A stretch of DNA of 64,000 nt, taken from positions 372,353 to 436,352 of the forward strand of contig DAIDHW010000001.1 of assembly GCA_027451865.1 (NCBI GenBank), read 5' to 3'. This stretch comes from Leptolyngbyaceae cyanobacterium clean351 (GTDB lineage: Bacteria; Cyanobacteriota; Cyanobacteriia; DAIDHW01). Shown piece by piece: positions 10,589-27,318 of the stretch. The notes under the pieces are model-generated. The model worked only from the letters and a program-made list of their open reading frames with translations, ran no database searches and was not told the origin of the DNA. Each line of letters opens with the position of its first letter. Within the stretch, counting starts at the first letter, position 1. The translations under genes were made by a program, and so were the position numbers.

Positions 10589-12649
10589 ATGACTATCAGA
10601 GGCTCCTTTGTCAGTACCACCGACTTGAAGGAACTAGTCAGAACTGTACTTTGCCAAAGCTGCGCGGTTACTGACAGCGAGGCCGGTAGCATCTACCTGG
10701 TAAAAAGCACTGCCCATGGGAGCCTTAGGGAGCTGCTCCATCTCCACTGGAGGGCCGAGGGCCAAGGTAGCCTCGAGCAGGCGGCTGATGTGCCCCTCAC
10801 CTTGGCTAGTCTCCCAGGCCAGGTAGCCCTGACCGACCAGGTGCTGAACCTCCCCACCGGGGCGATTGACCCGGGAGCCAAGACCACCTTGCTGTTGCCC
10901 ATGCATAATCCTGAGGGGGCAGTTCTAGGGGTCTTGCAGTTATACCAGGCTAGTCCCCGGGGTTATGCAGCCCAGACCGTGCGCACCTTGACAGCCCTGG
11001 CGGACCAGGCGGCTCTCCTCCTAGAGCGCAGCCAAACCCAGGGCCAGGCCCAGTTAGTCGAACAATTACTGACCGTGGGTACAGCCCTCTCCAGTAGCGA
11101 AGACCTCACCACGCTACTGAATATGATTTTGACTAAGTGCCGCCAAATCACCAGTAGTGATGCTGGCAGCCTCTACCTGATCCAACGGCTCCCAGATGCC
11201 CCTGGTTCTTTGCTGTTCAAGGTCGCCCAGAATGACTCCTATCCCCACCTGTCCTTTCGTGAAACCTCCCTGCCCTTGAGCGACCGCAGCTTGGCCGGGT
11301 ACGTAGCCCTCACCGGTAAAAGCCTCAACCTACCTGATGCCTACTGCCTTGACCCCCAAGCCCCCTACCGCTTCGACCAGAGTTTTGACCAGCGCCTCGG
11401 CTACCGCACCAGCTCGGTCCTGATCCTGCCAATGGTGAACCAAGGGGGAGAAATCATCGGGGTGGTGCAGCTGATCAACCGGAAACAACTAGCTGCTGCG
11501 GTAGTCACTCCCCTAAACTACGCCCAGGTCACCCAAGCCTACTCTGCCTGGGAAGAGCAGGTCATCTACTCCCTAGCCAGTCAGGCAGCGATCCTGATTG
11601 AGCGCAGTCAACTCCAAGAGAGCATCGAAAACCTGTTTGCCGGCTTTGTCGAGGCCTCCGTGGCGGTGATTGAAGCCCGCGACCCTTGCACTGCTGGTCA
11701 CTCGGGCCGGGTAGCCGAACTGACCGTGCGCCTAGCCCAGGAATCCCAAGGTCTGTACCTGCCCTCCGTGGGCATCTGTCAATTTAGTCCCCAGCAGCTC
11801 CGGGAGTTGCGCTACGCTTCTCTGCTCCATGACTTCGGCAAGGTGGGGGTCCCGGAGGCGGTCCTAGTCAAGGCCAAGAAACTCTACCCGGAGCAGCTAG
11901 AACTCCTGCGGCACCGCTTTGCCCTAGCCCGCCAGCACCTAAACCTAGAGTGCGCCCAAGCCAGGTACCGCCATCTTCTAGAGCACCCCAGTCACCTTGA
12001 GGAGCTCCACGAGCCAGAATCATGCCCCCATTGTCAATACAACCTCACCCTCGAGGCGCAACTGAGGGAGGGCCTCCAGGCCCTAGAGGAGTACTGGCAG
12101 TTAATCGAGGCGGCCAACGAACCCCGGGTCTGTCAGGAGGCCCCCTTGGCGAGACTGCAGGAAATTGCCCAGATCACCTACCCGGGTTTGGACAACACCC
12201 CTCAACCCCTTGTGAGTAACCAGGAGTTAGAGCAACTGCTGGTCCGTCAAGGCAGCCTAAACTCCCAAGAGCGCAAACTGATCGAGTCCCACGTCAGCCA
12301 AACCTACGAGTTCCTCATCCGCATTCCCTGGACCCGCCAGCTGCAGGATGTCCCCGCCATTGCCTATGGCCACCACGAGAAACTCGATGGCAGCGGTTAT
12401 CCCCTGGCCCTCAAGGCCCCCCAGATCCCCCTCCAGTGTCAGATGATGACTATTGCCGACATCTACGACGCCCTCACCGCCAGCGACCGGCCCTACAAGC
12501 GGGCCTTACCGGTCACGCGGGCGATGGACATCTTAAAGCAGGAAGCCCAGGACCAGAAAATTAACTTTGATCTAGTCACCTTGTTCGAGCAACGACAGGT
12601 CTTCCAGGTCCTAGGCCACGCCCTCGAGCCTGAAAGGAGATCGAGGTGA
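10589..12649 (+). CDS. GAF-GAF-HD-GYP signalling protein with a long insertion
   Basis: 686 residues from the ATG at 10589, which has aggga at suitable spacing; a TTG 30 bases upstream is less likely. Two GAF domains occupy about 10-155 and 165-345 (GSIYLV...LLLPMHNPEG; GSLYLIQ...SVLILPMVNQGGEIIGVVQLIN). A metal-dependent phosphohydrolase domain follows, with GHSGRVAELTVRLA, the HD pair at 414 (LHDFGKVGVPE), HHEKLDGSGYP at 595 and IADIYDALTASDRPYK, the HD-GYP signature of cyclic-di-GMP phosphodiesterases. About 120 extra residues sit between the HD and HHE motifs and include CPHC at 479-482 plus long helices. The enzyme is probably cytoplasmic and controlled by ligand or light through the GAF domains. 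Neither GAF shows an obvious bilin-binding Cys. Confidence 0.85.
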   Translation: MTIRGSFVSTTDLKELVRTVLCQSCAVTDSEAGSIYLVKSTAHGSLRELLHLHWRAEGQGSLEQAADVPLTLASLPGQVALTDQVLNLPTGAIDPGAKTTLLLPMHNPEGAVLGVLQLYQASPRGYAAQTVRTLTALADQAALLLERSQTQGQAQLVEQLLTVGTALSSSEDLTTLLNMILTKCRQITSSDAGSLYLIQRLPDAPGSLLFKVAQNDSYPHLSFRETSLPLSDRSLAGYVALTGKSLNLPDAYCLDPQAPYRFDQSFDQRLGYRTSSVLILPMVNQGGEIIGVVQLINRKQLAAAVVTPLNYAQVTQAYSAWEEQVIYSLASQAAILIERSQLQESIENLFAGFVEASVAVIEARDPCTAGHSGRVAELTVRLAQESQGLYLPSVGICQFSPQQLRELRYASLLHDFGKVGVPEAVLVKAKKLYPEQLELLRHRFALARQHLNLECAQARYRHLLEHPSHLEELHEPESCPHCQYNLTLEAQLREGLQALEEYWQLIEAANEPRVCQEAPLARLQEIAQITYPGLDNTPQPLVSNQELEQLLVRQGSLNSQERKLIESHVSQTYEFLIRIPWTRQLQDVPAIAYGHHEKLDGSGYPLALKAPQIPLQCQMMTIADIYDALTASDRPYKRALPVTRAMDILKQEAQDQKINFDLVTLFEQRQVFQVLGHALEPERRSR

Positions 12650-12802
12650 GTCGTTTCCAGAAAAAATTGGCGTTTTGGTGCCCTGTGAACTTTTTCCCCT
12701 GGACACTGGTCCTATGATTAGATTATGCTCTAGGAAAGTGTAATGCAGAAAACATGCAAAGTGTTACTGCTTATGCAGGTGTGAGGGAAATAGGAGACTA
12801 AC

Positions 12803-14509
12803 ATGTCTAAGCTACTGTGGAAATCGATTTTGGCTGGCCCAGCCGCCCTTGGTGCCACCCTACTAGTTGCCGGTGCTGCCTTTGCAGCCCAGCCCCCCGT
12901 TAAGACTGCCAACCCGGGGGTAAGTCAGACCATGCAAGAGGTCAACTCCCTGACCCAGGCTGACAACACCATTGCCCAGGTGACCTCCGTTTCCCAGCTG
13001 TCAGACGTGCAGCCGACGGACTGGGCCTTCCAAGCTCTCCAGTCCCTGGTGGAGCGCTACGGTTGTATCGCTGGCTACCCTAACGGCACCTTCCGCGGTA
13101 ACCGGGCTATGACCCGCTACGAGTTCGCCGCCGGTCTGAACGCTTGCCTAGACAAGATGAACGAGCTGATTCAGGCCGGGGACAACCAAGTCCGGCAGGA
13201 GGACCTAGCGGCGATCCAAAAGCTCGAGGATGAGTTTGGCCCTGAGCTAGCTGCCCTGCGCGGCCGGGTAGACTCCCTGGAAGCCCGGACAGCTAAGCTG
13301 GAGGCCCAACAATTCTCCACCACCACCAAGCTGACTGCGGAAGTCATCTTTGGCCTAGCGGATGCCAGCAGCATCAATGGCAACAATAACCAAGCCGTAT
13401 TCCAGAGCCGGGTCCGGTTGCTGTTTAACACCAGCTTCACCGGTAAGGACCTGTTGGAAACCCGGTTGACCTACAATAATGCCCCCCTGTTTGGAATCAA
13501 TGCCCCTGGCACTGGTTCTGTAACCGGTGAGGGTCGGCTGACCTACCAGGGTGGCACAGGCCCGGTCAGCGTCGACTGGTTGGCTTACTTCCTGCCCATC
13601 GGTAAGAAGGCCCAACTGTACGTGGCAGCCGTCGGCGGTCTGCACAGCGACTACCTGATCACTACGGCTAACCCCTACAACGAAGGGTACGGCGGTGGTA
13701 GTGGCGCCCTCAGCTACTTTGCCCAAGACAACTCCATCTACGACATCGGTGGTGGGACAGGGGCAGCCTTTAGCTACAACTTCACCCCAGTGGTCGGGTT
13801 CAACATCGGTTATCTAGCCGGCGATGACGTCAGTTCTGCCGCCGTCCCGAGCAATACCCCAGGTATTCCTGGTGTTACTAGCCATGGTAACGGCCTATTC
13901 AACGGCGGTTATGCGGGCCTGGCCCAGTTGAGCTTCCAGCCCTTCAAGGGGAATCTGAAGATCGCCCTGACCTACGTTAACGCCTATGCTGCCCCCGGGT
14001 CCTCCATCTTTAACTACGGTGGCAGTGGCGGTACCGGAGTAGTCGGGACGACCCTGGCTAACTTCCCTGGTAGTGGTGTTATTGGGGCGAGCACAGGTAC
14101 CCAGACCAACTCCTACGCCCTATCTGCTTCCTACCAGTTCACCCCCCACTTTGTGGTCAGCGCCTGGGGTGACTACACCAACGCCCGCATCGCCCACCCA
14201 GCGGCTCTGGGTCTGGTGAACGGCACCGGTGACATCTGGGCCTACGCCCTGTCCCTTGCCTTCCCCGATGCTTTTGTCAAGGGTAACCTGGCAGGCTTCA
14301 TCGTGGGGGCTGAGCCTTACCTGGCTAACTCCAAGTCGATCATTGCTGGCTCTGGTAACAAGGTGCCCATCCACATTGAGGGCTACTACAAGTTCCAGGT
14401 CAACGACTTTATCTCTGTCACCCCGGGGATCATCTACCTGGTCCACCCCGACCAAACCAGTGGTCCAGGGGCGGTGATCGGTACCATCCGCACTACCTTC
14501 ACCTTCTAA
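12803..14509 (+). CDS. SLH-domain OprB-type porin, copy 1 (barrel type A)
   Basis: 568 residues with a signal peptide (1-29, ending AFA). An SLH domain (about 62-122: QLSDVQPTDWAFQALQSLVERY, then GYPNGTFRGNRAMTRYEFAAGLNACL) anchors the protein to peptidoglycan-linked polysaccharide. A coiled coil follows (about 125-172), then a carbohydrate-selective OprB-type beta-barrel ending in the porin-like TTFTF. Cyanobacterial outer membranes are rich in such porins, which pass small solutes and inorganic ions. This is the first of five tandem paralogues. Its SLH/coiled-coil module is almost identical at DNA level to copy 2, and its barrel belongs with copies 2 and 3. A ggaga-type ribosome site precedes the ATG and a strong terminator follows at 14541. 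Confidence 0.93.
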   Translation: MSKLLWKSILAGPAALGATLLVAGAAFAAQPPVKTANPGVSQTMQEVNSLTQADNTIAQVTSVSQLSDVQPTDWAFQALQSLVERYGCIAGYPNGTFRGNRAMTRYEFAAGLNACLDKMNELIQAGDNQVRQEDLAAIQKLEDEFGPELAALRGRVDSLEARTAKLEAQQFSTTTKLTAEVIFGLADASSINGNNNQAVFQSRVRLLFNTSFTGKDLLETRLTYNNAPLFGINAPGTGSVTGEGRLTYQGGTGPVSVDWLAYFLPIGKKAQLYVAAVGGLHSDYLITTANPYNEGYGGGSGALSYFAQDNSIYDIGGGTGAAFSYNFTPVVGFNIGYLAGDDVSSAAVPSNTPGIPGVTSHGNGLFNGGYAGLAQLSFQPFKGNLKIALTYVNAYAAPGSSIFNYGGSGGTGVVGTTLANFPGSGVIGASTGTQTNSYALSASYQFTPHFVVSAWGDYTNARIAHPAALGLVNGTGDIWAYALSLAFPDAFVKGNLAGFIVGAEPYLANSKSIIAGSGNKVPIHIEGYYKFQVNDFISVTPGIIYLVHPDQTSGPGAVIGTIRTTFTF

Positions 14510-14540
14510 CCTGGCTTGACCTAACTTAGAAACTCTCCCG

Positions 14541-14568
14541 CCCCCGGCCTTGTGCCGGGGGTTTTTTT
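14541..14568 (+). terminator. Rho-independent terminator after porin 1
   Basis: CCCCCGGC and GCCGGGGG enclose a 5-base loop and are followed by seven T residues: a canonical intrinsic terminator 31 nt after the stop codon. Confidence 0.9.
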
Positions 14569-14579
14569 GTGGGCTTCCT

Positions 14580-15100
14580 CCCTACGTCTCCCTAGCCCTC
14601 TGGTCTCCCTAAGACCAGCCACAGCAGCCAAACTCCCTCAAGCTTACTATTTGTCCTAGGGTCTGTAGCATTGATAGTCACTACTAGAATTATTTTTCAA
14701 CACCTATTAGATGGCTTATGTCAAAGATTTAAAACCTTTATTAAGGGTATTAGAATATACTTATTTTTCTCTTAACTTAATCTGATTGCTATCTTAGAAA
14801 TATCTCAAAAACTATCTTTTAGACATATAAGAAAGTCTCTATGAGTAATGTAGTTAATTCCTAGAAAGCACACCAAGGAGGGTTATGTCAAGTTCAAAGA
14901 ATATATTTAGAAGCTCTTATAAGCAATCAAGATTTTATTTGAAGTATAGAGCAAGTAAGCTTCAAGTAGTTTATTTTTGCCTACACCGCCATCTATTCAG
15001 TGCATTGAAAGCCCCTATCAATAATCCATAGATCACATTCAATTTCCGTAGGATGATAGGTCCATCGGTGATTGATACCAACCTTGATTTCTTGAGGAGT
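14580..15100. other. AT-rich island between porins 1 and 2
   Basis: From about 14640 to 15080 the base composition swings to clearly AT-rich, with runs such as aattatttttcaacacc and ttaacttaatctgattgc, in a window that is otherwise GC-rich. It contains a 48-codon ORF at 14885-15031. The remainder is either the porin 2 upstream region or acquired DNA; no insertion-sequence ends were recognised. Confidence 0.6.
14885..15031 (+). CDS. Small AT-rich ORF, basic 48-aa protein, unknown
   Basis: A perfect Shine-Dalgarno sequence, AAGGAGG (14875-14881), stands 3 nt before the ATG. The 48 codons run to TAG and encode a basic peptide starting MSSSKNIFRSSYKQSRFYLK, with AGA, ATA, TTT and TAT codons unlike the neighbouring genes. 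No signal peptide, membrane segment or known motif is visible. The strong ribosome site is the main argument for translation; the composition suggests foreign or relaxed sequence. I do not recognise a family. Confidence 0.45.
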   Translation: MSSSKNIFRSSYKQSRFYLKYRASKLQVVYFCLHRHLFSALKAPINNP

Positions 15101-15104
15101 GACT

Positions 15105-16805
15105 ATGCCCGCAAACAACTTTTGGTTTAGGTCCCTGCTCGTAAGCCCCCTGGGGGTGGCTGCTTCCCTCTTGGTGCGCCTACCAGCCCTGGCGGGGACT
15201 GTTCCGGCCCCGGCCCCCGTGGTGCCGCTCTCCCAGATTGCTAGCGCTGACTCGAGCTCCCTGACCGCCCAGGTGACCTCCGTTTCCCAGCTGTCAGACG
15301 TGCAGCCGACGGACTGGGCCTTCCAAGCCCTCCAGTCCCTGGTGGAGCGCTACGGTTGCATCGCTGGCTACCCTAACGGCACCTTCCGCGGCAATCGAGC
15401 CATGACCCGCTACGAGTTCGCCGCCGGTCTGAACGCTTGCCTAGACAAGATGAACGAACTGATTCAGGCTGGGGACAACCAAGTCCGGCAAGAGGACCTA
15501 GCGGCGATCCAAAAGCTTGAGGATGAGTTTGGCCCTGAGCTAGCTGCCCTGCGCGGCCGGGTAGATTCCCTAGAAGCTCGCACCGCTAAGCTAGAAGCCC
15601 AACAATTCTCCACCACCACCAAGCTGACCGGCGAAGTCATCTTTGGCCCGGCTGATGCGAGCAGTATCAACGGCAACAATAACCAAGCGGTATTCCAAAG
15701 CCGGGTCCGGTTGTCCTTTAATACCAGCTTTACCGGTAAGGACCTGTTGGTGACCCGGTTACTCTACAGCAACGCCCCCCTGTTTGGGATCAATGCCCCT
15801 GGCACTGGTTCTGTAACCGGTGAGGGCCGGCTGACCTACCAGGAGGGGGTTACTCCCGTCACTGTCGACTGGTTGGCTTACTACCTACCCCTGGGTAAAA
15901 AAGCTCAACTGTTCCTGTCCGCTACAGGCAGCTTTCACGCTGACTACGTAATCACCACCGCTAACCCCTACAACGATGGGTACACCGGCGGCAATGGCTC
16001 CCTGAGTTTCTGGGCAGCCGACAACTCGATCTACTTTATCGGGGGCGGGACTGGGGCAGCTTTCACCTATAACTTCAGTAAGGTGATCGGTTTGAACCTC
16101 GGCTACCTAGCCGGCGATAACACCAGTTCGGCGGCAGTCCCCGGTAACACCCCGGGGATACCCAGTGTTACTAGCCATGGCAACGGCCTGTTTAACGGTG
16201 CCTATTCTGGCCTGGCTCAGTTGAGTTTCCAGCCTGACCACGGCAACCTGAAGATTGCCTTGATCTATATGAATGCCTACGCCACCCCTGGATCCTCAAT
16301 CTTTAACGCCGGGATCACTGGGGATGCCACCGGTCTGGTGGGGACGACTCTAGCTAACTTTCCTGGCAGTGGCACCGTTGGTGTGAGCACGGGTACCCAG
16401 ACCAACTCCTACGCCCTCTCTGCTTCCTACCAGTTCACCCCCCACTTTGTGGTCAGCGCCTGGGGCGACTACACCAACGCCCGCATCGCCCACCCGGCAG
16501 CCCTGGGTTTGACCCACGGAACAGGGGATATCTGGGCCTACGCCTTGTCCCTGGCCTTCCCTGATGCTCTAGTTAAGGGTAACTTGGCGGGCTTCATCGT
16601 GGGGGCTGAGCCCTACTTAGCTAACTCCAAGTCAATTATCCCCGGCGCTGGCAACAAGGTGCCCATCCACATCGAGGGCTACTACAAGTTCCAGGTCAAT
16701 GACTTTATCTCCGTCACCCCCGGGATCATTTACCTAGTCCACCCCGACCAAACCAGTGGTCCAGGGGCGGTGATCGGTGTCCTGCGCACCACCTTCACCT
16801 TTTAG
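15105..16805 (+). CDS. SLH-domain OprB-type porin, copy 2 (chimeric)
   Basis: 566 residues from the ATG at 15105, which is preceded by GAGGAG at 5-nt spacing; a GTG at 15099 lies inside that Shine-Dalgarno and is unlikely. The domains run as in copy 1: signal peptide, SLH, coiled coil, barrel, terminal TTFTF. The signal peptide (NNFWFRSLL..PLGVAASLL..RLPALAGTVP) matches copies 4 and 5, while the barrel matches copy 1 closely, including GIPSVTSHGNGLFNG and PHFVVSAWGDYTNARIAHPAALGL. The gene is thus a mosaic of the two porin subtypes. Function as an outer-membrane channel is inferred from the family. Confidence 0.93.
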   Translation: MPANNFWFRSLLVSPLGVAASLLVRLPALAGTVPAPAPVVPLSQIASADSSSLTAQVTSVSQLSDVQPTDWAFQALQSLVERYGCIAGYPNGTFRGNRAMTRYEFAAGLNACLDKMNELIQAGDNQVRQEDLAAIQKLEDEFGPELAALRGRVDSLEARTAKLEAQQFSTTTKLTGEVIFGPADASSINGNNNQAVFQSRVRLSFNTSFTGKDLLVTRLLYSNAPLFGINAPGTGSVTGEGRLTYQEGVTPVTVDWLAYYLPLGKKAQLFLSATGSFHADYVITTANPYNDGYTGGNGSLSFWAADNSIYFIGGGTGAAFTYNFSKVIGLNLGYLAGDNTSSAAVPGNTPGIPSVTSHGNGLFNGAYSGLAQLSFQPDHGNLKIALIYMNAYATPGSSIFNAGITGDATGLVGTTLANFPGSGTVGVSTGTQTNSYALSASYQFTPHFVVSAWGDYTNARIAHPAALGLTHGTGDIWAYALSLAFPDALVKGNLAGFIVGAEPYLANSKSIIPGAGNKVPIHIEGYYKFQVNDFISVTPGIIYLVHPDQTSGPGAVIGVLRTTFTF

Positions 16806-16807
16806 CC

Positions 16808-16870
16808 TAACTTGCAGCCCCCAACCGGGGGCCCTAGGGCTGGCAAGTTAGTGTTTGTGTTTTATTCTGT
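16808..16870 (+). terminator. Probable terminator after porin 2
   Basis: A long hairpin pairs AACTTGC-AGCCC with GGGCT-G-GCAAGTT, with an inner GCCCCC/GGGGGC stem, and is followed by a T-rich tail (gtgtttgtgttttattct). The T-run is interrupted, so the call is moderate. Confidence 0.65.
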
Positions 16871-16920
16871 CTCCCCCTGCCGCCGGACGGGGGGACAGCA
16901 GGATATTTGGTTGAGGTTTT

Positions 16921-16999
16921 CTCGCAAACATGGCCCTGGGAACGGACCATGGTATGTTCGCGGAGGCTAACCATTTCAGGGTGCCGACTGGTTCCCAGG
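16921..16999 (+). promoter_or_regulatory. Inverted repeats upstream of porin 3
   Basis: CCTGGGAAC (16935-16943) is exactly complementary to GTTCCCAGG (16991-16999). Within the same span cgcaaacatgg and ccatggtatgttcgcg form a second, imperfect inverted repeat. They could be part of a structured 5' leader or a regulator-binding site, 57 bp or more before the porin 3 start. The function is not known. Confidence 0.35.
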
Positions 17000-17055
17000 C
17001 AGATTCAGTCATCCCCCATCCCTGATTAATACCTCATCAACACCTAGGAAACTCC

Positions 17056-18648
17056 ATGCCGCCAAAGTGGTACTTGGCTGGATTAATTAGCCCCCTCCTC
17101 CTGGCCACCGTCCTGCCCGCCGCCCCGGGCTGGGCCCAGACCCAATCTCCTTCCCCAGTTACCTCCGTCTCCCAGTTAGCCGATGTGCAACCGACCGACT
17201 GGGCCTTCCAAGCTCTCCAGTCCCTGGTAGAGCGCTACGGTTGTATTGCCGGCTACCCTAACAGCACCTTCCGCGGCAACCGGGCCATGACCCGCTACGA
17301 GTTCGCCGCTGGACTGAATGCTTGCTTGAACAAGATGAGCGAGCTGATCCAAGCTGGGGACAACCAGGTGCGTCAGGAAGACTTGGCAGCCCTGCAAAAG
17401 CTCGAAGATGAGTTTAACCCTGAGCTAGCGGCCCTGCACGGCCGGGTTGACTCCCTGGAAGCTCGCACCGCTAAGCTAGAAGCCCAACAATTTTCCCCCA
17501 CCACCAAGCTGACCGGTACAGTCGTCTTTGGCCTAGCGGATGCAAGCAGCATCAACGGCAACAGCAATCAAACCGTCTTCCAGAGTCGGGTGCGCCTCCT
17601 ATTTAGCACCAGCTTCACGGGCCAAGACCTGCTCTCAACCCGTTTAACCTACAGTAATTCCCCTCTGTTTGGCCTTACCAGTGATGCGGCGGGGAATTTT
17701 ACCGGAGAGGGACGCCTATCCTTCCAGGACGGCACCGGCCCCTTGTCCATCGACTGGCTAGCCTACCAGTTCCCCATCGGTGAAAAAGCCCAGCTCTACG
17801 TAGCCGCGGTAGGTGCCCAGCACGAAGACTACGTAATCACCACCGCTAGCCCCAACGACGACGAAAACAGTGGCGCCTTGAGCTACTTCGGCCAATACAA
17901 CGCCATTTTCGACATCGGGGGTGACACGGGAGTGGGCTTTACCTACAACTTCACCCCCGTGCTTGGCTTCAATCTGGGTTACCTAGCCGGGGCTGATGTT
18001 TCCAACCCGAGTTCTCCCCTGCCTAACAATGGCCTTTTCAACGGCACCTACGGGGCCCTGGCCCAACTAAGCTTCCAGCCCCACAAGGGCTGGCTGCAAG
18101 TGGCTCTCACCTACGTGAACGCCTACGCGGCCCCAGGGGAGTCGCTTTTTAATTACGGTGGGAGTGATGGGACTGGGATCGTCGGCACTACCCTGGCTAA
18201 TTTCCCCGGCAGCGGTTCAGTGGGCTTTGGTACCGGTGTTCAGAGCAATTCCTACGGTCTTTCCGCCGCCTACCAGTTCACTCCCCACCTGATCCTGAGC
18301 GCCTGGGGTGACTATACTAACGCCCAGATCACCCACCCGGCCTCCCTAGGTCTGAACCAGGGAACTGGGGACATCTGGGCTTATGCCCTGGCCCTTAACT
18401 TCCCCGACGCCTTCCGTAAGGGCAATATGGCCAGCCTGATCCTGGGGGCTGAACCCTACCTGGCTAACTCTAAATCGATTCTGGCCGGGTCCGGGAACCT
18501 CGTACCAGTTCACCTTGAGGGTTACTACCGGTTCCAGGTCAATGACTTTATTTCGGTCACCCCCGGGATCATTTACCTGGTCCATCCCGACCAAAACCCC
18601 GGGCCAGGAGCGGTGATTGGGGCGGTGAGGACTACCTTCACCTTCTAG
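17056..18648 (+). CDS. SLH-domain OprB-type porin, copy 3 (barrel type A)
   Basis: 530 residues, the shortest of the five. Its signal peptide (ending GWAQ) is unrelated to the others, and only a short linker precedes the SLH domain (about 35-95). A coiled coil follows, then a type A barrel that is shorter in one extracellular loop than copies 1 and 2 (VSNPSSPLPNNGLFNG in place of the longer segment with GIPGVTSHGNGLFNG). It ends TTFTF. Start ATG with tagga upstream. A decayed copy of its 3' end and downstream leader exists at 20936-21310, showing that this segment was part of a past tandem duplication. Confidence 0.92.
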   Translation: MPPKWYLAGLISPLLLATVLPAAPGWAQTQSPSPVTSVSQLADVQPTDWAFQALQSLVERYGCIAGYPNSTFRGNRAMTRYEFAAGLNACLNKMSELIQAGDNQVRQEDLAALQKLEDEFNPELAALHGRVDSLEARTAKLEAQQFSPTTKLTGTVVFGLADASSINGNSNQTVFQSRVRLLFSTSFTGQDLLSTRLTYSNSPLFGLTSDAAGNFTGEGRLSFQDGTGPLSIDWLAYQFPIGEKAQLYVAAVGAQHEDYVITTASPNDDENSGALSYFGQYNAIFDIGGDTGVGFTYNFTPVLGFNLGYLAGADVSNPSSPLPNNGLFNGTYGALAQLSFQPHKGWLQVALTYVNAYAAPGESLFNYGGSDGTGIVGTTLANFPGSGSVGFGTGVQSNSYGLSAAYQFTPHLILSAWGDYTNAQITHPASLGLNQGTGDIWAYALALNFPDAFRKGNMASLILGAEPYLANSKSILAGSGNLVPVHLEGYYRFQVNDFISVTPGIIYLVHPDQNPGPGAVIGAVRTTFTF

Positions 18649-18669
18649 GCTAGGCCAGATGAGGTGCAG

Positions 18670-18714
18670 AACATAGCTAGCGTGCAGAAATTTCACGCCC
18701 GACCTATGTTTTCC
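18670..18714 (+). terminator. Hairpin after porin 3
   Basis: AACATAG (18670-18676) pairs with CTATGTT (18704-18710), and inner GCGTG pairs with CACGC around a cagaaattt loop; a short ttttcc tail follows. The same element is kept, partly decayed, at about 21122-21172. It may be a terminator or an RNA structure in the leader of porin 4. Confidence 0.5.
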
Positions 18715-18865
18715 AGGCGACATAGATTTTTGGGGACCTCATGCTACTGTTTCTAGTGAAAACTTAAGGGGGCAAGTGCCGCGCATTAGTTTAGTAAAAC
18801 TAGTGCCCCCCTCTCAGCTGATTGACCCCTTAAATTTCTTAACTCTGGTGTGAGGATCTGTAGTG

Positions 18866-20566
18866 ATGAATAGCTTTTGGTTCAAGGCCTTGGTAGCTAG
18901 CCCCGTGGCCGTGGCTGCCTCCCTGCTTTTCCGGCTGCCCGCCCTCGCCGGGACTGTCCCCCCTCCCGTAGTACCCATCTCCCAGATTGCCACCGCCGAC
19001 TCTGGCCAGCTGACTGCCCAGGTCACCTCAGTCTCTCAACTGTCTGACGTGCAACCTACCGACTGGGCCTTCCAAGCCCTCCAATCCCTAGTGGAGCGCT
19101 ACGGTTGTATCGCCGGCTATCCTAACGGCACCTTCCGCGGTAACCGGGCCATGACTCGGTATGAGTTTGCTGCCGGTCTGAATGCCTGCTTGAACAAGAT
19201 GAACGAGCTGATCGAAGCTGGGGATAACCAGGTGCGTCAGGAAGACTTGGCGGCTCTGCAAAAGCTCGAGGATGAGTTTGGCCCTGAGCTAGCGGCCCTG
19301 CGCGGCCGGGTTGACTCCCTTGAAGCTCGCACCGCTAAGCTAGAAGCCCAACAGTTCTCCACCACCACCAAACTGAGTGGGGAAGTCGTCTTCGCCTTGG
19401 CTGGGGCCTTCGGTAACACCATTGCCGTCAATAGTGGTAAGCCCGCCTCCACCACTGGCATTCCCAACAACTTAATCTTCGGTGACCGGGTCCGCTTAAA
19501 CTTCGTTACTAGCTTTAACGGCCGGGACCAATTGTTGACCCGCTTGGAAGCCAATGATTTCTCTCCCTTCAGTGGTAGTGTGACTGGCACCAACGAAACC
19601 CGCTTGGGCTTTGATGGTATTCCTGCCGGCACCGCGCCAAACGGCGTCATTGTTGGACGCTTGTGGTACGCTACTCCTATTGGTGACCACTTCAAGCTTT
19701 GGGCCATCGCCACGGGTGGTGAATTTAACGACGTCTTCTACAACTACAACCCCTACTTCCAGGATGGTGGCACTGGCGCCCTCTCTCGCTTCGGCCGGTT
19801 TAGCTCCATCTACCGCTTTGACGGCACCGGCAGCGGTTCTGGCACTGGTGGTACTGGCTTTGCCTTCACCTACCGGTTTAACCGACACGCAGCATTTGAC
19901 GCAGGCTACATGGCCAAGAACGCTGAGTTCTCCAGCTCTACGGGGGCTCCGACCACCAGCTTCAGTCTCTTTGGCAGCACCTACGAGGCCCTGGCCCAGA
20001 TAGATGTCACTCCGGTTAAGAAGTTCCAGTTTGGGCTCACCTACGCCCACACCTACTTCCAAGGAGGGGACGTCAGCGTCACCAGCGCCACCGGCACCAA
20101 CTTTGCGGCGGTGCCCTTCCCGACCACCGCTGGGGGGAGTGTCGGTCAGCCTAGCTCCTCCGACGCCTACGGTTTGGAGTTCAACTGGTCCCCCGTCCGT
20201 CACTTCAACCTGTCCGGCTGGGTGGACTACACCACCGTCGTCGCCCAAAAGGGTACCGCTGGTCTGTTCCCCACTGGCGCCCATGCTAACCTGATCACCT
20301 GGGCTGCTGCCCTGGCCTTCCCGGATCTGGGTCGTCGCGGCAACGTAGGTGGGATTATCTTCGGTCAACCCGGTACTCTGGAAGCCAGCACCTACGGAGC
20401 CCAAGTTGACTCGGCCAACACCTACCAGCTGGAGATGCTGTACAAGTACCGAGTGACGGATAACATCTTCTTCACCCCTGGTGCTTTTGTGATCTTCAAT
20501 CCCAACGGTAACAGCGCCAATAGTGACATCTACGTGGCTGCTGTGCGTACCACCTTCCACTTCTAA
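18866..20566 (+). CDS. SLH-domain OprB-type porin, copy 4 (barrel type B)
   Basis: 566 residues from the ATG at 18866 (gagga Shine-Dalgarno at 18852; GTG at 18863 possible). Signal peptide of the NSFWFKALVASPVAVAASLL type, then the shared SLH domain and coiled coil, then a second barrel type with FGNTIAVNSGKPASTTGIPN, FVTSFNGRDQLLTRLEAND and the Gly-rich GTGSGSGTGGTGFAFTYRFN segment. It ends TTFHF. From about 19960 through the stop and into the terminator the DNA is nearly identical to copy 5, the footprint of recent duplication or gene conversion. Role as an outer-membrane channel for small solutes is inferred from the family. Confidence 0.93.
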   Translation: MNSFWFKALVASPVAVAASLLFRLPALAGTVPPPVVPISQIATADSGQLTAQVTSVSQLSDVQPTDWAFQALQSLVERYGCIAGYPNGTFRGNRAMTRYEFAAGLNACLNKMNELIEAGDNQVRQEDLAALQKLEDEFGPELAALRGRVDSLEARTAKLEAQQFSTTTKLSGEVVFALAGAFGNTIAVNSGKPASTTGIPNNLIFGDRVRLNFVTSFNGRDQLLTRLEANDFSPFSGSVTGTNETRLGFDGIPAGTAPNGVIVGRLWYATPIGDHFKLWAIATGGEFNDVFYNYNPYFQDGGTGALSRFGRFSSIYRFDGTGSGSGTGGTGFAFTYRFNRHAAFDAGYMAKNAEFSSSTGAPTTSFSLFGSTYEALAQIDVTPVKKFQFGLTYAHTYFQGGDVSVTSATGTNFAAVPFPTTAGGSVGQPSSSDAYGLEFNWSPVRHFNLSGWVDYTTVVAQKGTAGLFPTGAHANLITWAAALAFPDLGRRGNVGGIIFGQPGTLEASTYGAQVDSANTYQLEMLYKYRVTDNIFFTPGAFVIFNPNGNSANSDIYVAAVRTTFHF

Positions 20567-20586
20567 ACCCGCCTGAGGTTAACTCG

Positions 20587-20621
20587 AACCCCCTGGGAGC
20601 CTGGCCCCCGGGGGGTTTTTT
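20587..20621 (+). terminator. Rho-independent terminator after porin 4
   Basis: AACCCCC(TGGG) pairs with the C-rich/GGGGGGTT arm and is followed by a run of six T. The same element follows porin 5. Confidence 0.85.
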
Positions 20622-20640
20622 GTGGGCTTAGAGAGTCAGC

Positions 20641-20800
20641 ATCCACGGCTAGGCTAAACACCACTGGTACAAAGAGCAGGGTAAAAAGCACCGATACCAC
20701 TAGGGGTTTTTTGCAGCAGACCCGGTTCCTAGGGCCAGCTGATTAGTGTCCTAAAATAACCCCCTCTTTGACCACCAACAGACGGAGGGGAATTTGGGCC
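20641..20800 (-). pseudogene. Decayed fragment of the RND transporter 3' end
   Basis: This stretch aligns by eye with the 3' end of the intact RND gene at 23157-23488, in the same orientation and order but with internal deletions. Matching blocks are cacggctaggctaaacacca, then agcagggtaaa, accgatacc, gggttttttgcag against gggcttttgcag, gattagtgt against gattggtgt, and tttgaccacca. Reading frames are broken. The segment sits immediately after porin 4 exactly as the intact RND gene sits after porin 5, so it marks the end of a duplicated unit. Confidence 0.75.
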
Positions 20801-20935
20801 GCTAGCCCCTAAGGAAAAGTCTTCAAAATTGGCGGGGCGATTTAATTTATTTCTGCTGTAAAAGAGCAAAAAATGTACCTTGATCTAAGGAAATGCAGTC
20901 ATTTCGTGGATTTCTTTTGCAGAATACTTGTGCTT
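20801..20935. other. Junction between two decayed fragments
   Basis: About 135 bp of moderately AT-rich sequence with no gene and no clear repeat. It separates the RND remnant from the porin 3 remnant and so should contain the breakpoint of the ancestral tandem duplication. Confidence 0.5.
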
Positions 20936-21101
20936 GCCTAAACTGATTCTGGCCGGGTCTGCTAACCTCCTACCGATTACTATTCAGGGTTAGTGCTGGT
21001 CCAGCTCAATGATTTTATTACGGTCACCCCGGGGATTATTTATTTAGTTCATTGCAACTAACTTTGGATCGGGGGCAGGGAGGACTACCTTCACCTTCTA
21101 G
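20936..21101 (+). pseudogene. Decayed 3' end of a type A porin
   Basis: It aligns with the last 170-190 bp of porin 3 (18460-18648): gattctggccgggtc, then caatgattttattacggtcacc, then ggggattatttatttagttcat, and the final aggactaccttcacc before TAG at 21099. Deletions and frameshifts have removed coding capacity. The leader downstream (to 21335) is also homologous to the porin 3-porin 4 spacer, including the hairpin and the ribosome site used by porin 5. Confidence 0.8.
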
Positions 21102-21335
21102 GCTGGATGGGATGAAGTTGAGACATATCTAGAGTGCAGGAATTTCACCTGCGGGGGGTAATATGTTTTCCGGACTACATAAATTCCTGGGGTCCTCATT
21201 CTATCGTCTATGTCTGTTGTTTCTGAGGGGGGCCCAGAGGTCCAGGTATTTTGTGCTAGTCGAATAAACCTAGTGCTCCCCTGTCAGCTGATTGCCCCCT
21301 TCAATTTCTTAACCCTGGTGTGAGGATCTGTAGTG

Positions 21336-23045
21336 ATGAATAGCTTGATGAATAGCTTTTGGTTCAAGGCCTTGGTAGCTAGCCCCGTGGCTGTGGCTGC
21401 CTCCCTGCTTTTCCGGCTGCCCGCCCTTGCCGGGACTGTCCCCCCTCCCGTAGTCCCAGTCTCCCAGATTGCTGCTAACTCGGGTCAGTTGACGGCCCAA
21501 GTCACCTCCGTTTCTCAACTGTCTGACGTGCAACCTACCGACTGGGCCTTCCAAGCCCTCCAATCCCTAGTGGAGCGCTACGGTTGTATCGCCGGCTACC
21601 CCAACGGTACCTTCCGCGGTAACCGGGCCATGACTCGGTATGAGTTCGCCGCCGGTTTGAATGCTTGCTTGAACAAGATGAACGAGCTGATCGAAGCTGG
21701 GGATAACCAGGTGCGTCAGGAAGACTTGGCGGCCCTGCAAAAGCTCGAGGATGAGTTTGGCCCTGAGCTAGCGGCCCTGCGCGGCCGGGTAGACTCCCTG
21801 GAAGCTCGCACCGCCAAGCTAGAAGACCAGCAGTTCTCCACCACTACTAAGCTGAGTGGGTCAGTAGTCTTTGCTATAGCCGGGGCCTTCGGTAACACCC
21901 TCGCCGTTAATAGTGGTAAGCCTGCCTCCACCACTGGCATCCCCAATAATCTGATCTTTGGTGACCGGATCCGCTTGAACTTCGTCACCAGCTTCAACGG
22001 CCGGGACCAGTTGTTGACCCGCTTAGAAGCTAACGACTTCACTCCCTTCAATGGCCCCGTGACCGGCACCAACGAAACCCGTCTCGGTTTTGACGGGATC
22101 CCCGCCGGTGCAGGTCCTAACACCGTGATCATTGGTCAGTTGGTGTATGACACCCCCATTGGTGACCACTTCAAACTCTGGGCAATCGCCACCGGTGGCG
22201 AATTTGATGCCGTCTTCAACAACTACAACCCCTACTTCCAGGCCAACGGCACTGGCGCCCTCTCCCGTTTCAGTCGATTTAGCTCCATCTACCGCTTTGA
22301 CGGCACCGGCAGCGGTTCTGGCACCGGCGGCACAGGCTTTGCCTTCACCTACCGGTTCAACCAGCACGTGGCGGTAGACGCGGGCTACATGGCCAAGAAT
22401 GCCGAGTTCCCCAACGCCGTTGGCGCTCCGACCACCAGCTTCAGTCTCTTCGGCAGCACCTACGAGGCCCTGGCCCAGATAGATGTCACTCCGGTTAAGA
22501 AGTTCCAGTTTGGGCTCACCTACGCCCACACCTACTTCCAAGGAGGGGACGTCAGCGTCACCAGCGCCACCGGCACCAACTTTGCGGCGGTGCCCTTCCC
22601 GACCACCGCTGGGGGGAGTGTCGGTCAGCCTAGCTCCTCCGACGCCTACGGTTTGGAGTTCAACTGGTCCCCCGTCCGTCACTTCAACCTGTCCGGCTGG
22701 GTGGACTACACCACCGTCGTCGCCCAAAAGGGTACCGCTGGTCTGTTCCCCACTGGCGCCCATGCTAACCTGATCACCTGGGCCGCTGCCCTGGCCTTCC
22801 CGGATCTGGGTCGTCGCGGCAACGTAGGTGGGATTATCTTCGGTCAACCCGGTACTCTGGAAGCCAGCACCTACGGAGCCCAAGTTGACTCGGCCAACAC
22901 CTACCAGCTGGAGATGCTGTACAAGTACCGAGTGACGGATAACATCTTCTTCACCCCTGGTGCTTTTGTGATCTTCAATCCCAACGGTAACAGCGCCAAT
23001 AGTGACATCTACGTGGCTGCTGTGCGTACCACCTTCCACTTCTAA
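21336..23045 (+). CDS. SLH-domain OprB-type porin, copy 5 (barrel type B)
   Basis: 569 residues. The N-terminus contains a 12-base tandem duplication (atgaatagcttg repeated imperfectly) relative to copy 4, giving MNSLMNSFWFKAL; start at 21336 or 21348, with the gagga site favouring 21336. SLH and coiled coil as in the other copies, then a type B barrel. The first two thirds of the barrel differ from copy 4 at many codons, whereas the last 600 or so bases plus the terminator are virtually identical. It is followed convergently by the RND gene. Role as an outer-membrane channel is inferred from the family. Confidence 0.93.
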   Translation: MNSLMNSFWFKALVASPVAVAASLLFRLPALAGTVPPPVVPVSQIAANSGQLTAQVTSVSQLSDVQPTDWAFQALQSLVERYGCIAGYPNGTFRGNRAMTRYEFAAGLNACLNKMNELIEAGDNQVRQEDLAALQKLEDEFGPELAALRGRVDSLEARTAKLEDQQFSTTTKLSGSVVFAIAGAFGNTLAVNSGKPASTTGIPNNLIFGDRIRLNFVTSFNGRDQLLTRLEANDFTPFNGPVTGTNETRLGFDGIPAGAGPNTVIIGQLVYDTPIGDHFKLWAIATGGEFDAVFNNYNPYFQANGTGALSRFSRFSSIYRFDGTGSGSGTGGTGFAFTYRFNQHVAVDAGYMAKNAEFPNAVGAPTTSFSLFGSTYEALAQIDVTPVKKFQFGLTYAHTYFQGGDVSVTSATGTNFAAVPFPTTAGGSVGQPSSSDAYGLEFNWSPVRHFNLSGWVDYTTVVAQKGTAGLFPTGAHANLITWAAALAFPDLGRRGNVGGIIFGQPGTLEASTYGAQVDSANTYQLEMLYKYRVTDNIFFTPGAFVIFNPNGNSANSDIYVAAVRTTFHF

Positions 23046-23065
23046 ACCCGCCTGAGGTTAACTCG

Positions 23066-23099
23066 AACCCCCTGGGAGCCTGGCCCCCGGGGGGGTTTT
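23066..23099 (+). terminator. Terminator after porin 5
   Basis: AACCCCC(TGGG) pairs with the C-rich/GGGGGGGTT arm and is followed by TTTT. It is the same element as at 20587 with one more G and a shorter T-run. It lies 8 bp before the convergent end of the RND gene and may serve both. Confidence 0.75.
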
Positions 23100-23106
23100 A
23101 GCTGGC

Positions 23107-26100
23107 TTAGGGGACTGGAGAATCAACCGGCAGCTGCCTAGCCCCAGCGGGCTTACCCACGGCTAGGCTAAACACCACCGGCACGAACAGCAGGGTAAAG
23201 AGAGTCGAAACACATAACCCACCAATTACCGATACCGCCAAGGGCTTTTGCAGTTCAGACCCAGCTCCTAAACCCAAGGCTAAGGGCAGCAGTCCTAAAA
23301 TTGTGCAGAGGGTCGTCATCAGAATTGGCCGCAGACGAGCCCGCCCCGCCCGCAGCAGAGCCTCCCGGAGGGGATATTCCTGGGCACGCAGTTGATTGGT
23401 GTACTCAAGCAAAATAATCCCGTTTTTGACCACCAGACCCACAAGCAAAACAATCCCCATGAGGGAAGAGACGTTGAGGGGGATCTGGGTCAACCTTAAG
23501 GCCACCACCACCCCAAGCAAGGCTAAGGGGACAGTCGTGAAAATTACCAAGGGCTGGCGGAAGGAGCGAAACTGCAACAGCAAAATCAGGTACACCAAGA
23601 GCAGGGCCAAGGCCAATACCTGGAGCAACTGCCAAAAGGCCTGCTGTTGACTTTGGTAAAGACCACCAATGTCTAGGGAGTAACCAGCCGGGAGGTTCAG
23701 GGGCTGCAAACGGCGCCGGAGGGAGGATACCACTGACCCCAGGTCCTGCCCCTGTAGGTCAGCGTTCAAGCCCACGTAGCGCTGTTGATTTTCCCTGAGG
23801 ATTTCGGCCTGGCTATCGCGATCCACCACTTGGGCGATCTCCCCGAGGGGTACTAGGGCATGATTAGATCCGGCAATGGGGATCTGGAGGATTTGCTGCC
23901 GGTCTTGGCGAGCACCGGCTGGGAGCCGGACCCGAATATCCACCAGGCGCTCCCCCTGGCGCAGTTGGCCAATTACCTGGCCAAACAGGGCATTTTGCAC
24001 CTGCAGGGCCACATCAGCCTGAGTAAGGCCTAGCTGGCCCGCAGCTACCGGGTCAACCACTAAGTCTAGTTCAGGGACCGCCACACTACCGACCTGGGCT
24101 AAGTCCACCAGCCCTGGCACCGCCTTGATCCGCTGGGCGATCTGGTCACTCAAGGTCCCCAGCTGCTGTGAGTCACTGCCAAATAATCGCAGGGCAATAG
24201 GGCTGGCACTACCAGACAGGTCATCTAATTCATCCTGGAGGATCTGGTGAAAATTCACCTGCAGCTGAGGCACAAGGGCAGCAATGTCTTGGCGTTGCTG
24301 GTCGATGACAGCAAATACACTGCGGTGTCGCTGGCTCTGGGGCTGCAGGATCACCTGAATGTCTCCCGTATTGGGTTCAGTGGCAAACAGGCCATTTTGG
24401 GCCCCAGTCCGGCGGGTCCAGGTGACCACCTCTGGGGTTTTGGCTAGAACCTGCTCAATGCGCTCAGCTAAAGCACTAGTTTGCTGCAGGCTAGTACCGG
24501 CGGGGGCAACGTAGTCAACAATATAACTCCCCTCATCAAAAGCTGGCAGGAAGTCATTCCCTAAACCCTGAAACAGTGTAATTCCCAGCCCCAATAAGCC
24601 CACAGCCATCGCCACTAACCACCGGGGATGGTCTAGGGCCCACCCCAGGAGGTCAGTATAACCTTGGTCCAGACGCACTAGCATCCTTGGCTCAGAGTGG
24701 GAGGTACCGCCCTGGAGGACTCGGGCGGCCAGGAGGGGAGTTAGCACTAGGGCTAGAAGCAAAGAAAAAATCACCGCCGCTGCTAGGGTGATAGTCAAGC
24801 TGATAAAAAACTCCCCCGCTACTCCCGAAAGGAGGCCCAAGGGCAGAAATACCGCCACCGTGGTGGCCGTGGAGCTGATCACCGGCCCGGCTAGCTCGCC
24901 CATGGCTGCGGCCACTGCCCTTTGGGGGTCAGCCTGGTGCTGCAGCTGGCGGTCAATGTTCTCGATCACCACAATTGCATCATCGATCACCAGGCCGATC
25001 GCCACGGCCAAACCTCCCAAGGACATGAGGTTTAGGCTCTCCCCCACCAAGTACAAGACGCAAAAGGCCGCCAGGGCTGACAAGGGGATAGTCAAGGCAG
25101 CAATAAAGGTACTGCGCCACTCCCGGAGAAAAGCGTACAAGACCACTATGATCAGGGCAATGCCAATCAAGATTGAGTCCCGGACATTGGCGATGGCATC
25201 GACTACCAAGCCCGATTCGTCGTAGGCCGGCTCAATTTCCAGGCCCGGAGGGAGGCTAGGGCGTAGGCGTTCCCACTCTCGGGCCACCCCCTGGCCAACT
25301 GCCACCACGTTGCTGTAGGGTTGGCGGAACACATTCAGGGTCAGGCCGGGCCGACCGTGGACGCTGACAATCTGGGTGGGGTCAGCCTCACCTAGGGTGA
25401 CGGTGGCCACATCCCGCAGGAATAGGGGTTTTCCGTCCCCTCGGCTGGTAATCACCACATTCAAGAGGGCTTGGGGGTCCGTGGGCTGTCCATTGGCAAT
25501 TAAGAGATTCTGCTGGTCGAGGCGGTCTAACTTACCCACCGCTAGGGTTTGACTCGACTGCTGGAGGGCATTGGAGACCTCAGGCAAGCTCAGGGAGTAG
25601 TTTTTGAGCTTGACCGGGTCTACTTGCACCTCCACCTCGGCTGCGTTGCCCCCTTGGATCTGAATACGTGATACCCCGGGCACGCGGGTTAGCCGGGGCT
25701 GAATTTGATAGCGGGCAATTGCGTCTAGGTCCGTCGGCAGGAGGGTGGAGCTGCTGAGGTTATAGCTGAGGACTGGGAAGATGGCGGGGGTAATTCGTTC
25801 AATGTCCAGGGTGATGCCGGCCGGTAGTGCACTCTGAATCTGGGTTACCCGGGCTTGCACCTGCTGGAGGGCCTGGTCCATATTGGTGCCCGGCTGGAAG
25901 TTGACAGAAATTTCCGTAGAGCCGCGGATGGTCTTAGATTTGACCCAATCTACCCCGGGGACTTGACCTACCTCAGCCTCTAGAAGACGCGTGGCACTCA
26001 AAACCACCTGCTCAGCTGAGAGGTCCCCCAAGCCACCAATCACCGTGATGCGGGCAAAGGTCAGCTCCGGGTAGACAGCACTAGGGAGGACTGTAAAGGC

Positions 26101-26184
26101 AGCGGCGCCGGCCAGAGCAATCAGGAGAAAAAGCAGATAGATGCCCTTGGCTTGGTGCTGCAGCAGGCGGGTAAACTTCAGCAT
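23107..26184 (-). CDS. RND efflux transporter, inner-membrane permease
   Basis: 1,025 residues with the two-fold RND layout: TM1 (LLFLLIALAGAAAFTVLP), a large periplasmic loop (PVLSYNL, RVPGVSRIQIQGG), a TM2-6 block with the diagnostic GLVIDDAIVVIENIDR segment carrying the Asp pair used for proton relay, a second periplasmic loop and a TM8-12 block (VLLVGLVVKNGIILLEYTN). It is a proton-driven exporter that works in a tripartite complex with the adaptor and TolC-type channel encoded just upstream. Substrates (drugs, lipids or metals) cannot be read from sequence; Met/His-rich metal signatures were not seen. The ATG is 6 nt after the adaptor stop. A decayed copy of its 3' end lies at 20641. Confidence 0.93.
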   Translation of the reverse strand: MLKFTRLLQHQAKGIYLLFLLIALAGAAAFTVLPSAVYPELTFARITVIGGLGDLSAEQVVLSATRLLEAEVGQVPGVDWVKSKTIRGSTEISVNFQPGTNMDQALQQVQARVTQIQSALPAGITLDIERITPAIFPVLSYNLSSSTLLPTDLDAIARYQIQPRLTRVPGVSRIQIQGGNAAEVEVQVDPVKLKNYSLSLPEVSNALQQSSQTLAVGKLDRLDQQNLLIANGQPTDPQALLNVVITSRGDGKPLFLRDVATVTLGEADPTQIVSVHGRPGLTLNVFRQPYSNVVAVGQGVAREWERLRPSLPPGLEIEPAYDESGLVVDAIANVRDSILIGIALIIVVLYAFLREWRSTFIAALTIPLSALAAFCVLYLVGESLNLMSLGGLAVAIGLVIDDAIVVIENIDRQLQHQADPQRAVAAAMGELAGPVISSTATTVAVFLPLGLLSGVAGEFFISLTITLAAAVIFSLLLALVLTPLLAARVLQGGTSHSEPRMLVRLDQGYTDLLGWALDHPRWLVAMAVGLLGLGITLFQGLGNDFLPAFDEGSYIVDYVAPAGTSLQQTSALAERIEQVLAKTPEVVTWTRRTGAQNGLFATEPNTGDIQVILQPQSQRHRSVFAVIDQQRQDIAALVPQLQVNFHQILQDELDDLSGSASPIALRLFGSDSQQLGTLSDQIAQRIKAVPGLVDLAQVGSVAVPELDLVVDPVAAGQLGLTQADVALQVQNALFGQVIGQLRQGERLVDIRVRLPAGARQDRQQILQIPIAGSNHALVPLGEIAQVVDRDSQAEILRENQQRYVGLNADLQGQDLGSVVSSLRRRLQPLNLPAGYSLDIGGLYQSQQQAFWQLLQVLALALLLVYLILLLQFRSFRQPLVIFTTVPLALLGVVVALRLTQIPLNVSSLMGIVLLVGLVVKNGIILLEYTNQLRAQEYPLREALLRAGRARLRPILMTTLCTILGLLPLALGLGAGSELQKPLAVSVIGGLCVSTLFTLLFVPVVFSLAVGKPAGARQLPVDSPVP

Positions 26185-26190
26185 GGGCTC

Positions 26191-27318
26191 CTATCCTTTT
26201 TGAGCGACGATCATAGTTCCATCAGGGAAACCGTAGGCCCCCTGAGCAACGATCAACTCCCCGGCTTGCAGGCCGGCGGTAACCTCAACCTGACCATGGG
26301 ATTTAATCCCGGTTTGGATCGGCACCCGTTTGATCCGTTGATGAGCGTAGACGTAAACAAGCTGCTGGCCGGGGTGGGCCGGGTCCGGCACCAGGGCTGT
26401 TTGGGGAATAGTCAACGCTTGGTCATGGACAGCAGTGACTGCTACCACGCTGACGGCCTGGTTTTCCTTCAGCAGTTCTCCCGGGTTGGGGACGCGGATG
26501 GCTACACTGACCGTGTTACTGGCTGGGTCAACCACCGGGCTGATGGCCGTCACCATCCCCGGGAAAATCCGCCCCGGGTAGGCGGGGGTGGTGATATTGA
26601 CCGATTGACCCGGGTGCAGGTGAGCCTGTTGGTCGGCGGGTAGATGGGCACTCACCAGCACATTTTGCAGGTTAACCACTTGCAAAATGGGGGTGTTAGG
26701 GTCGGTTATGTCTCCTTGATTAAGAAACCGGTGGGCCACCACCCCGGTAAGAGGACTAGTCACTCGGGTGAAGCTAGCCTGGGTCTGGGATTGGTCCTGG
26801 ACCGCTTCAGCCTGCTGGGCCTGGGCCTGGGCAGCCCTTAGTTGGGCCTGGGCACTTTGGTACTGGCTGAGGGCTGCGACCAGGTCTTTGCGGGGAGCAA
26901 TTTTTTCCCCGTAAAGTTGCCGCTGGCGAGCTAGGTTATTGGCCGCCAACAGGAGGGCCGTGCGAGCTTGGGACACCCCGGCTTGGGCCACCTCCAGAGA
27001 AGCGCTGCTTTGGTCTACCTGGGTCTGGGCTACTTGACTATCCAGACGGGCGACGACCTCACCTTGACTCACCCACTGACCCTCTTGGGGAAGAACAGCG
27101 GCCAGCCGCCCAGCCACCGCCGGACTAATTTTCACCGAGTGGTCTGGCAGAGGATTAACGGTACCGCTGAGGGTAATGGTGGCAGTAAGGTTGGCGCGGC
27201 CCACGGAAATCACCGGCAGGGCAACGGGGGCGGGAGAGGCTAACGGGGTAGGAGACTTGGCCTGGCAACCTGCCAGGCACACCACTAACGCTCCCCCGAG
27301 ACCAAGGCGACGGATCAT
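26191..27318 (-). CDS. RND efflux periplasmic adaptor (membrane fusion) lipoprotein
   Basis: 375 residues. Lipobox CLAGC near residue 18 indicates lipid anchoring to the inner membrane. A lipoyl-type half (GRLAAVLPQEGQWVSQGEVVARLD) is split by an alpha-helical hairpin rich in Ala/Gln (about 110-175) and completed by VTSPLTGVVAHRFLNQGD; beta-barrel (VNLQNVLVSAHLPADQ) and membrane-proximal domains follow. It bridges the RND permease and the outer-membrane channel. It sits between those two genes with gaps of 12 and 6 nt, clearly an operon. Start ATG with ggag upstream. Confidence 0.92.
   Translation of the reverse strand: MIRRLGLGGALVVCLAGCQAKSPTPLASPAPVALPVISVGRANLTATITLSGTVNPLPDHSVKISPAVAGRLAAVLPQEGQWVSQGEVVARLDSQVAQTQVDQSSASLEVAQAGVSQARTALLLAANNLARQRQLYGEKIAPRKDLVAALSQYQSAQAQLRAAQAQAQQAEAVQDQSQTQASFTRVTSPLTGVVAHRFLNQGDITDPNTPILQVVNLQNVLVSAHLPADQQAHLHPGQSVNITTPAYPGRIFPGMVTAISPVVDPASNTVSVAIRVPNPGELLKENQAVSVVAVTAVHDQALTIPQTALVPDPAHPGQQLVYVYAHQRIKRVPIQTGIKSHGQVEVTAGLQAGELIVAQGAYGFPDGTMIVAQKG

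Follow-up and report, generated by a model that had tools for sequence, protein, structure and literature searches.

Decayed gene ends between two neighbouring cyanobacterial porin genes point to a tandem duplication followed by gene conversion

The spacer between the fourth and fifth genes (P4 and P5) of a cyanobacterial porin array holds the decayed 3' end of the adjacent RND transporter gene, followed by the decayed 3' end of porin P3 and its downstream leader. The locus thus reads P3 - P4 - RND' - P3' - P5 - RND, with both fossils in the order predicted for a head-to-tail duplication and in their native orientations, and P4 and P5 form a mosaic of near-identical and diverged sequence. We consider it likely that one account covers these observations: a tandem duplication, the decay of its inner flanks, and a later gene conversion between P4 and P5.

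Results

A five-gene porin array beside an RND efflux operon

The window, that is, the whole 64,000-nucleotide stretch of DNA that was analysed, belongs to an assembly of 2.48 Mb in 48 contigs that is 98.8% complete; a search of this assembly for 16S rRNA found none. Its five head-to-tail porin genes, P1-P5 (Table 1), have 530-570 codons each, and all five of the encoded proteins combine an SLH domain with an OprB barrel, both above the curated Pfam cut-offs. Such SLH-OprB porins are common to 290 of the 291 genomes of the window's class, which is the basis for the cyanobacterial assignment, in a comparison set where the window's genome is the sole representative of its order. Directly after P5 lies the RND gene, convergent to the array, and next to it the gene for a HlyD-type adaptor. 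No known RNA families were found in 12000-27000.

Two further features of the array were observed. At the P5 start (21333-21365) there is a 12-bp direct repeat (ATGAATAGCTTG ATGAATAGCTTT), with four more codons than in P4, and the listed GTG start is probably the wrong one, an ATG coming immediately after it. The P1-P2 spacer (14510-15098, 589 bp) is visibly AT-rich relative to its surroundings and, beyond a terminator, is without a match elsewhere in the window.

Table 1. Features of the porin array and of the P4-P5 spacer, in window coordinates.
Feature	Position	Strand	Remarks
P1 porin	12803-14509		SLH + OprB (Pfam)
P2 porin	15099-16805		SLH + OprB (Pfam)
P3 porin, intact source of the P3 fossil	17056-18648	+	Pfam OprB 1.8e-42, SLH 3e-7
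P3-P4 leader, putative source of the duplicated leader	18649-18862	+	
P4 porin, putative copy 1 of the duplicated porin	18863-20566	+	Pfam OprB 2.5e-46, SLH
Putative conversion tract in P4 and its terminator	19973-20615	+	1 mismatch/643 nt
Decayed RND 3' end	20616 to about 20850	-	Source 23095 to about 23570
Junction zone	20851-20924	no strand	AT-rich, fits neither source
Decayed P3 3' end	20925-21104	+	Source 18457-18648
Leader of P5, putatively duplicated	21105-21332	+	
P5 porin, putative copy 2 of the duplicated porin	21333-23045	+	Pfam OprB 6e-44, SLH
Putative partner conversion tract in P5	22452-23094	+	1 mismatch/643 nt
Intact RND transporter (AcrB family), source of the RND fossil	23107-26184	-	Pfam ACR_tran 4.9e-257
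HlyD-type adaptor	26191-27318	-	

The P4-P5 spacer contains decayed ends of the RND gene and of P3

The initial annotation had proposed that both remnants lie in this 766-bp spacer, and local alignment of 20567-21335 against 18450-18870 and 23045-23500 bore this out, with significant matches to both segments, which were also the best matches of the spacer against the rest of the window. For the RND end, 20567-20757 aligned to 23046-23301 with 167 of 190 bases identical and a score of 188, compared with a maximum of 53 among 300 dinucleotide shuffles (the control used for both main spacer alignments), and blastn returned pieces with E=3e-23 and 2e-11. Immediately after the P4 stop, 49 bases (20567-20615) form an intact shared terminator rather than decayed RND sequence, being GC-rich and aligned to 23046-23094 without a mismatch; the RND-derived sequence begins at about 20616. 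With the terminator left out, the decayed RND part still gave two significant pieces, of 46 nt (89% identity) and 54 nt. A stem-loop with a T run lies at 20603-20617, the count of such structures not being above that in shuffles.

Further collinear pieces continue the match to the RND gene: 20732-20777 pairs with 23382-23435 (score 54, reached by none of 1000 shuffles, maximum 41), and 20778-20850 carries the match on as far as about 23570, with a score higher than in any of 500 shuffles. The fossil is collinear with about 475 bp of its source, with internal deletions between the pieces. Its minus-strand frame still reads KPLVVSV..LFTLLFVPVVFSLAV, like the intact RND C-terminus, and carries stops, frameshifts and deletions. 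The best decayed piece has 89% DNA identity to the adjacent RND gene, and identity to the adjacent RND protein is only 28-30% for the genome's four other RND proteins.

The second remnant, at 20925-21335, aligned to 18457-18865 with 309 of 389 aligned bases identical and a score of 365 (shuffle maximum 56; blastn E=5e-52). Its coding part is nearest to P3 (143/178) and less near to P1 (127/179) and P2 (112/158), and contains in-frame stops, frameshifts and deletions. Relative to intact P3 it shows 20 GC>AT and 4 AT>GC changes; a drift from GC to AT is expected of unselected DNA from general mutational bias. The leader of P5 (21106-21332) has 162 positions identical to the P4 leader and 40 mismatches, and matches that leader alone (score 194, compared with 22-32 for the leaders of P1-P3); its last 76 nt are 88% kept and the remainder 77%.

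The junction between the remnants can be bracketed at about 20851-20924, since 20831-20915 alone has no significant RND match and the sequence upstream of 20925 has no P3 match. Extension of the RND fossil through 20831-20915 gave p=0.06 by shuffling (rank 124 of 671 segments) and is not claimed, and for the P3 fossil an extension to the left of about 20925 lacked significance (20880-20937, p=0.38). Some 75 nt at the junction have a match in neither RND nor P3; GC is 36% over 20851-20920, compared with 58% for the window, and a search across the genome found no other significant match to this zone.

The 3' parts of P4 and P5 have probably been homogenized

P4 and P5 share 91.8% nucleotide identity overall, and within them lies a 643-nt tract with one mismatch, made up of identical runs of 332 and 310 bases, the longest of which was matched in none of 20,000 permutations. 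The tract spans mid-barrel through terminator, including 49 non-coding bases after the stop, and ends where the decayed RND sequence starts, that is, where intact homology stops. Upstream of it, 50-nt coding windows vary between 62 and 100% identity. In the 5' part, dS is 0.497 (bootstrap 0.388-0.611; 369 codons), with a value of 0.80 for the 5' part of the barrel, whereas in the 3' part it is 0.007 (0-0.022; 197 codons). From a single difference in 643 nt while the 5' part has a dS of about 0.5, we infer that the identical tract was produced by conversion through homologous recombination, and a recent conversion that would have overwritten the 3' part best explains the pattern. Purifying selection might be invoked instead, since the protein sequence of porin barrels is under constraint, but the synonymous sites are identical too, as are the 49 non-coding bases, and the tract has abrupt ends; the chance that selection underlies this identity appears negligible. 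The idea in the initial annotation that selection preserved the porins while their flanks decayed holds for the flanks, but selection alone is insufficient for the genes, given the contrast in dS between their two parts.

The signal-peptide region may be a second, shorter tract (dS 0.07, 95% 0-0.22), although its 36 codons provide too few data. The most diverged part of P4 and P5 lies at 19570-19669 / 22049-22148, with 62-76% identity per 50 nt and a dS of about 1.9, and is possibly a surface loop or the product of conversion from an unknown donor. In the SLH/coil region (for example 19016-19338), P1-P5 are far more alike, synonymous sites included; dS between P3 and P4 is 0.54 there compared with 1.59 in the barrel, and this likeness suggests exchange between two porin subgroups.

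A head-to-tail duplication and its alternatives

A head-to-tail duplication of a block running from the P3 end through one porin to the RND end, of at least about 2.6 kb, seems well supported by the arrangement of the sequence, as the initial annotation had anticipated: order and orientation are right, and each fossil is nearest to the adjacent intact gene rather than to other paralogues. We infer a single tandem event. The ancestral order would have been P3 - porin - RND, with RND convergent, and the duplicated block would have started ~190 bp before the end of P3, taken in the leader, the porin and the terminator, and reached ~480 bp into the 3' end of RND. Because this block carried the porin together with its own leader and terminator, both porins would have stayed complete genes, while the inner truncated ends of RND and P3, being functionless, would have decayed by substitutions, stops and deletions. 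Later, and probably much more recently, conversion between P4 and P5 would have copied a stretch of about 643 nt that begins mid-barrel and runs to the terminator's end. No comparable gene remnants were found in the P1-P2 and P2-P3 spacers.

The fossil flanks and the 5' part of P4/P5 agree in pointing to an old duplication. The fossils lie at distances of K about 0.14-0.28 from the intact copies, each pair consisting of one decaying and one constrained lineage. The dS of 0.50 in the 5' part of P4/P5 falls within the range expected from these values, which favours the duplication, whereas the 0.80 of the 5' barrel is high relative to the fossils and counts against it.

Two other histories of the spacer were weighed. 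A larger tandem duplication, taking in the whole of P3 and of RND and perhaps more, could have been followed by a deletion that joined the inner RND to the inner P3, in which case 20851-20924 would be the deletion scar. This history predicts an identical final sequence, and it accords both with the several internal deletions that the fossils already hold and with a junction zone that fits neither source, but it requires one extra event and the spacer is without any other trace of a bigger block; on balance it seems rather unlikely. Since a deletion between the truncated genes after a bigger duplication would give this very sequence, the junction, although it falls inside the interval of 20801-20935 first proposed for the breakpoint, need not be the original breakpoint of the duplication. 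RND and P3 fragments might also have been copied independently into the spacer, with P4 and P5 of other origin. Nothing specific speaks for this beyond the unassigned stretch that separates the pieces, whereas their order, their orientation and their adjacency to the matching porin sides are what one tandem event predicts, and the fossils directly adjoin leader and terminator; we regard independent copying as very improbable.

Porin arrays at other cyanobacterial loci

Tandem arrays occur in 10 of 11 porin loci from other cyanobacterial genomes, a count that is not a frequency because these loci were picked for visible neighbouring porin matches. One tandem pair (locus L070, 6467-10213) has 341 identical nt in the N-terminal region and barrels that are 52-66% alike, and loci L064 and L065 contain 92-nt runs of up to 98% identity, also in the N-terminal region. 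As near-identical stretches thus occur in otherwise diverged pairs, local conversion among neighbouring porins is probably recurrent; the similarity of the SLH regions is in part a matter of constraint. The 19 best RND homologue loci from other cyanobacteria have no porin within about 1.5 kb and are therefore not orthologous to this one. Scans for relatives with the RND gene and with P4 gave no hit. For cyanobacterial porins, a literature search on tandem duplication and on gene conversion found nothing relevant.

Discussion

Tandem duplication by unequal or illegitimate recombination can leave decayed flanking gene fragments in bacterial genomes. The locus described here is like such cases in its head-to-tail arrangement, in the truncated neighbours at the joint, in the complete gene in each copy and in the decay of the truncated pieces; unlike them, its scar is old yet readable from both sides. 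Tandem paralogues can also undergo concerted evolution by gene conversion, which the P4/P5 tract resembles in being near-identical and sharply bounded within diverged paralogues. Here the tract comprises the 3' barrel and the terminator, whereas porins in the other cyanobacterial arrays examined are most alike in the N-terminal SLH and the region that follows it. With an N-terminal SLH domain and an OprB barrel, P1-P5 are like the cyanobacterial SLH-OprB porins of the SomA/SomB type (PMC9705863); unlike that type, here five head-to-tail copies adjoin an RND efflux operon.

The scar is ordinary genome evolution by an ordinary mechanism, in an unusually legible form. It offers a clear case in which non-functional flanks still record how old a duplication is, although gene conversion has removed part of that record from the genes. 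It also warns against dating porin paralogues by their coding sequence and provides a way to tell the two processes apart in the porin arrays of cyanobacteria. We suggest, tentatively and at somewhat less than even odds, that recurrent tandem duplication, together with frequent conversion on a local scale, drives the evolution of cyanobacterial SLH-OprB arrays, with SLH regions and barrel halves shuffled among the copies. If so, duplications would have to be dated by their decayed flanks and not by the genes, and an array of this kind would be a slow generator of mosaic porins.
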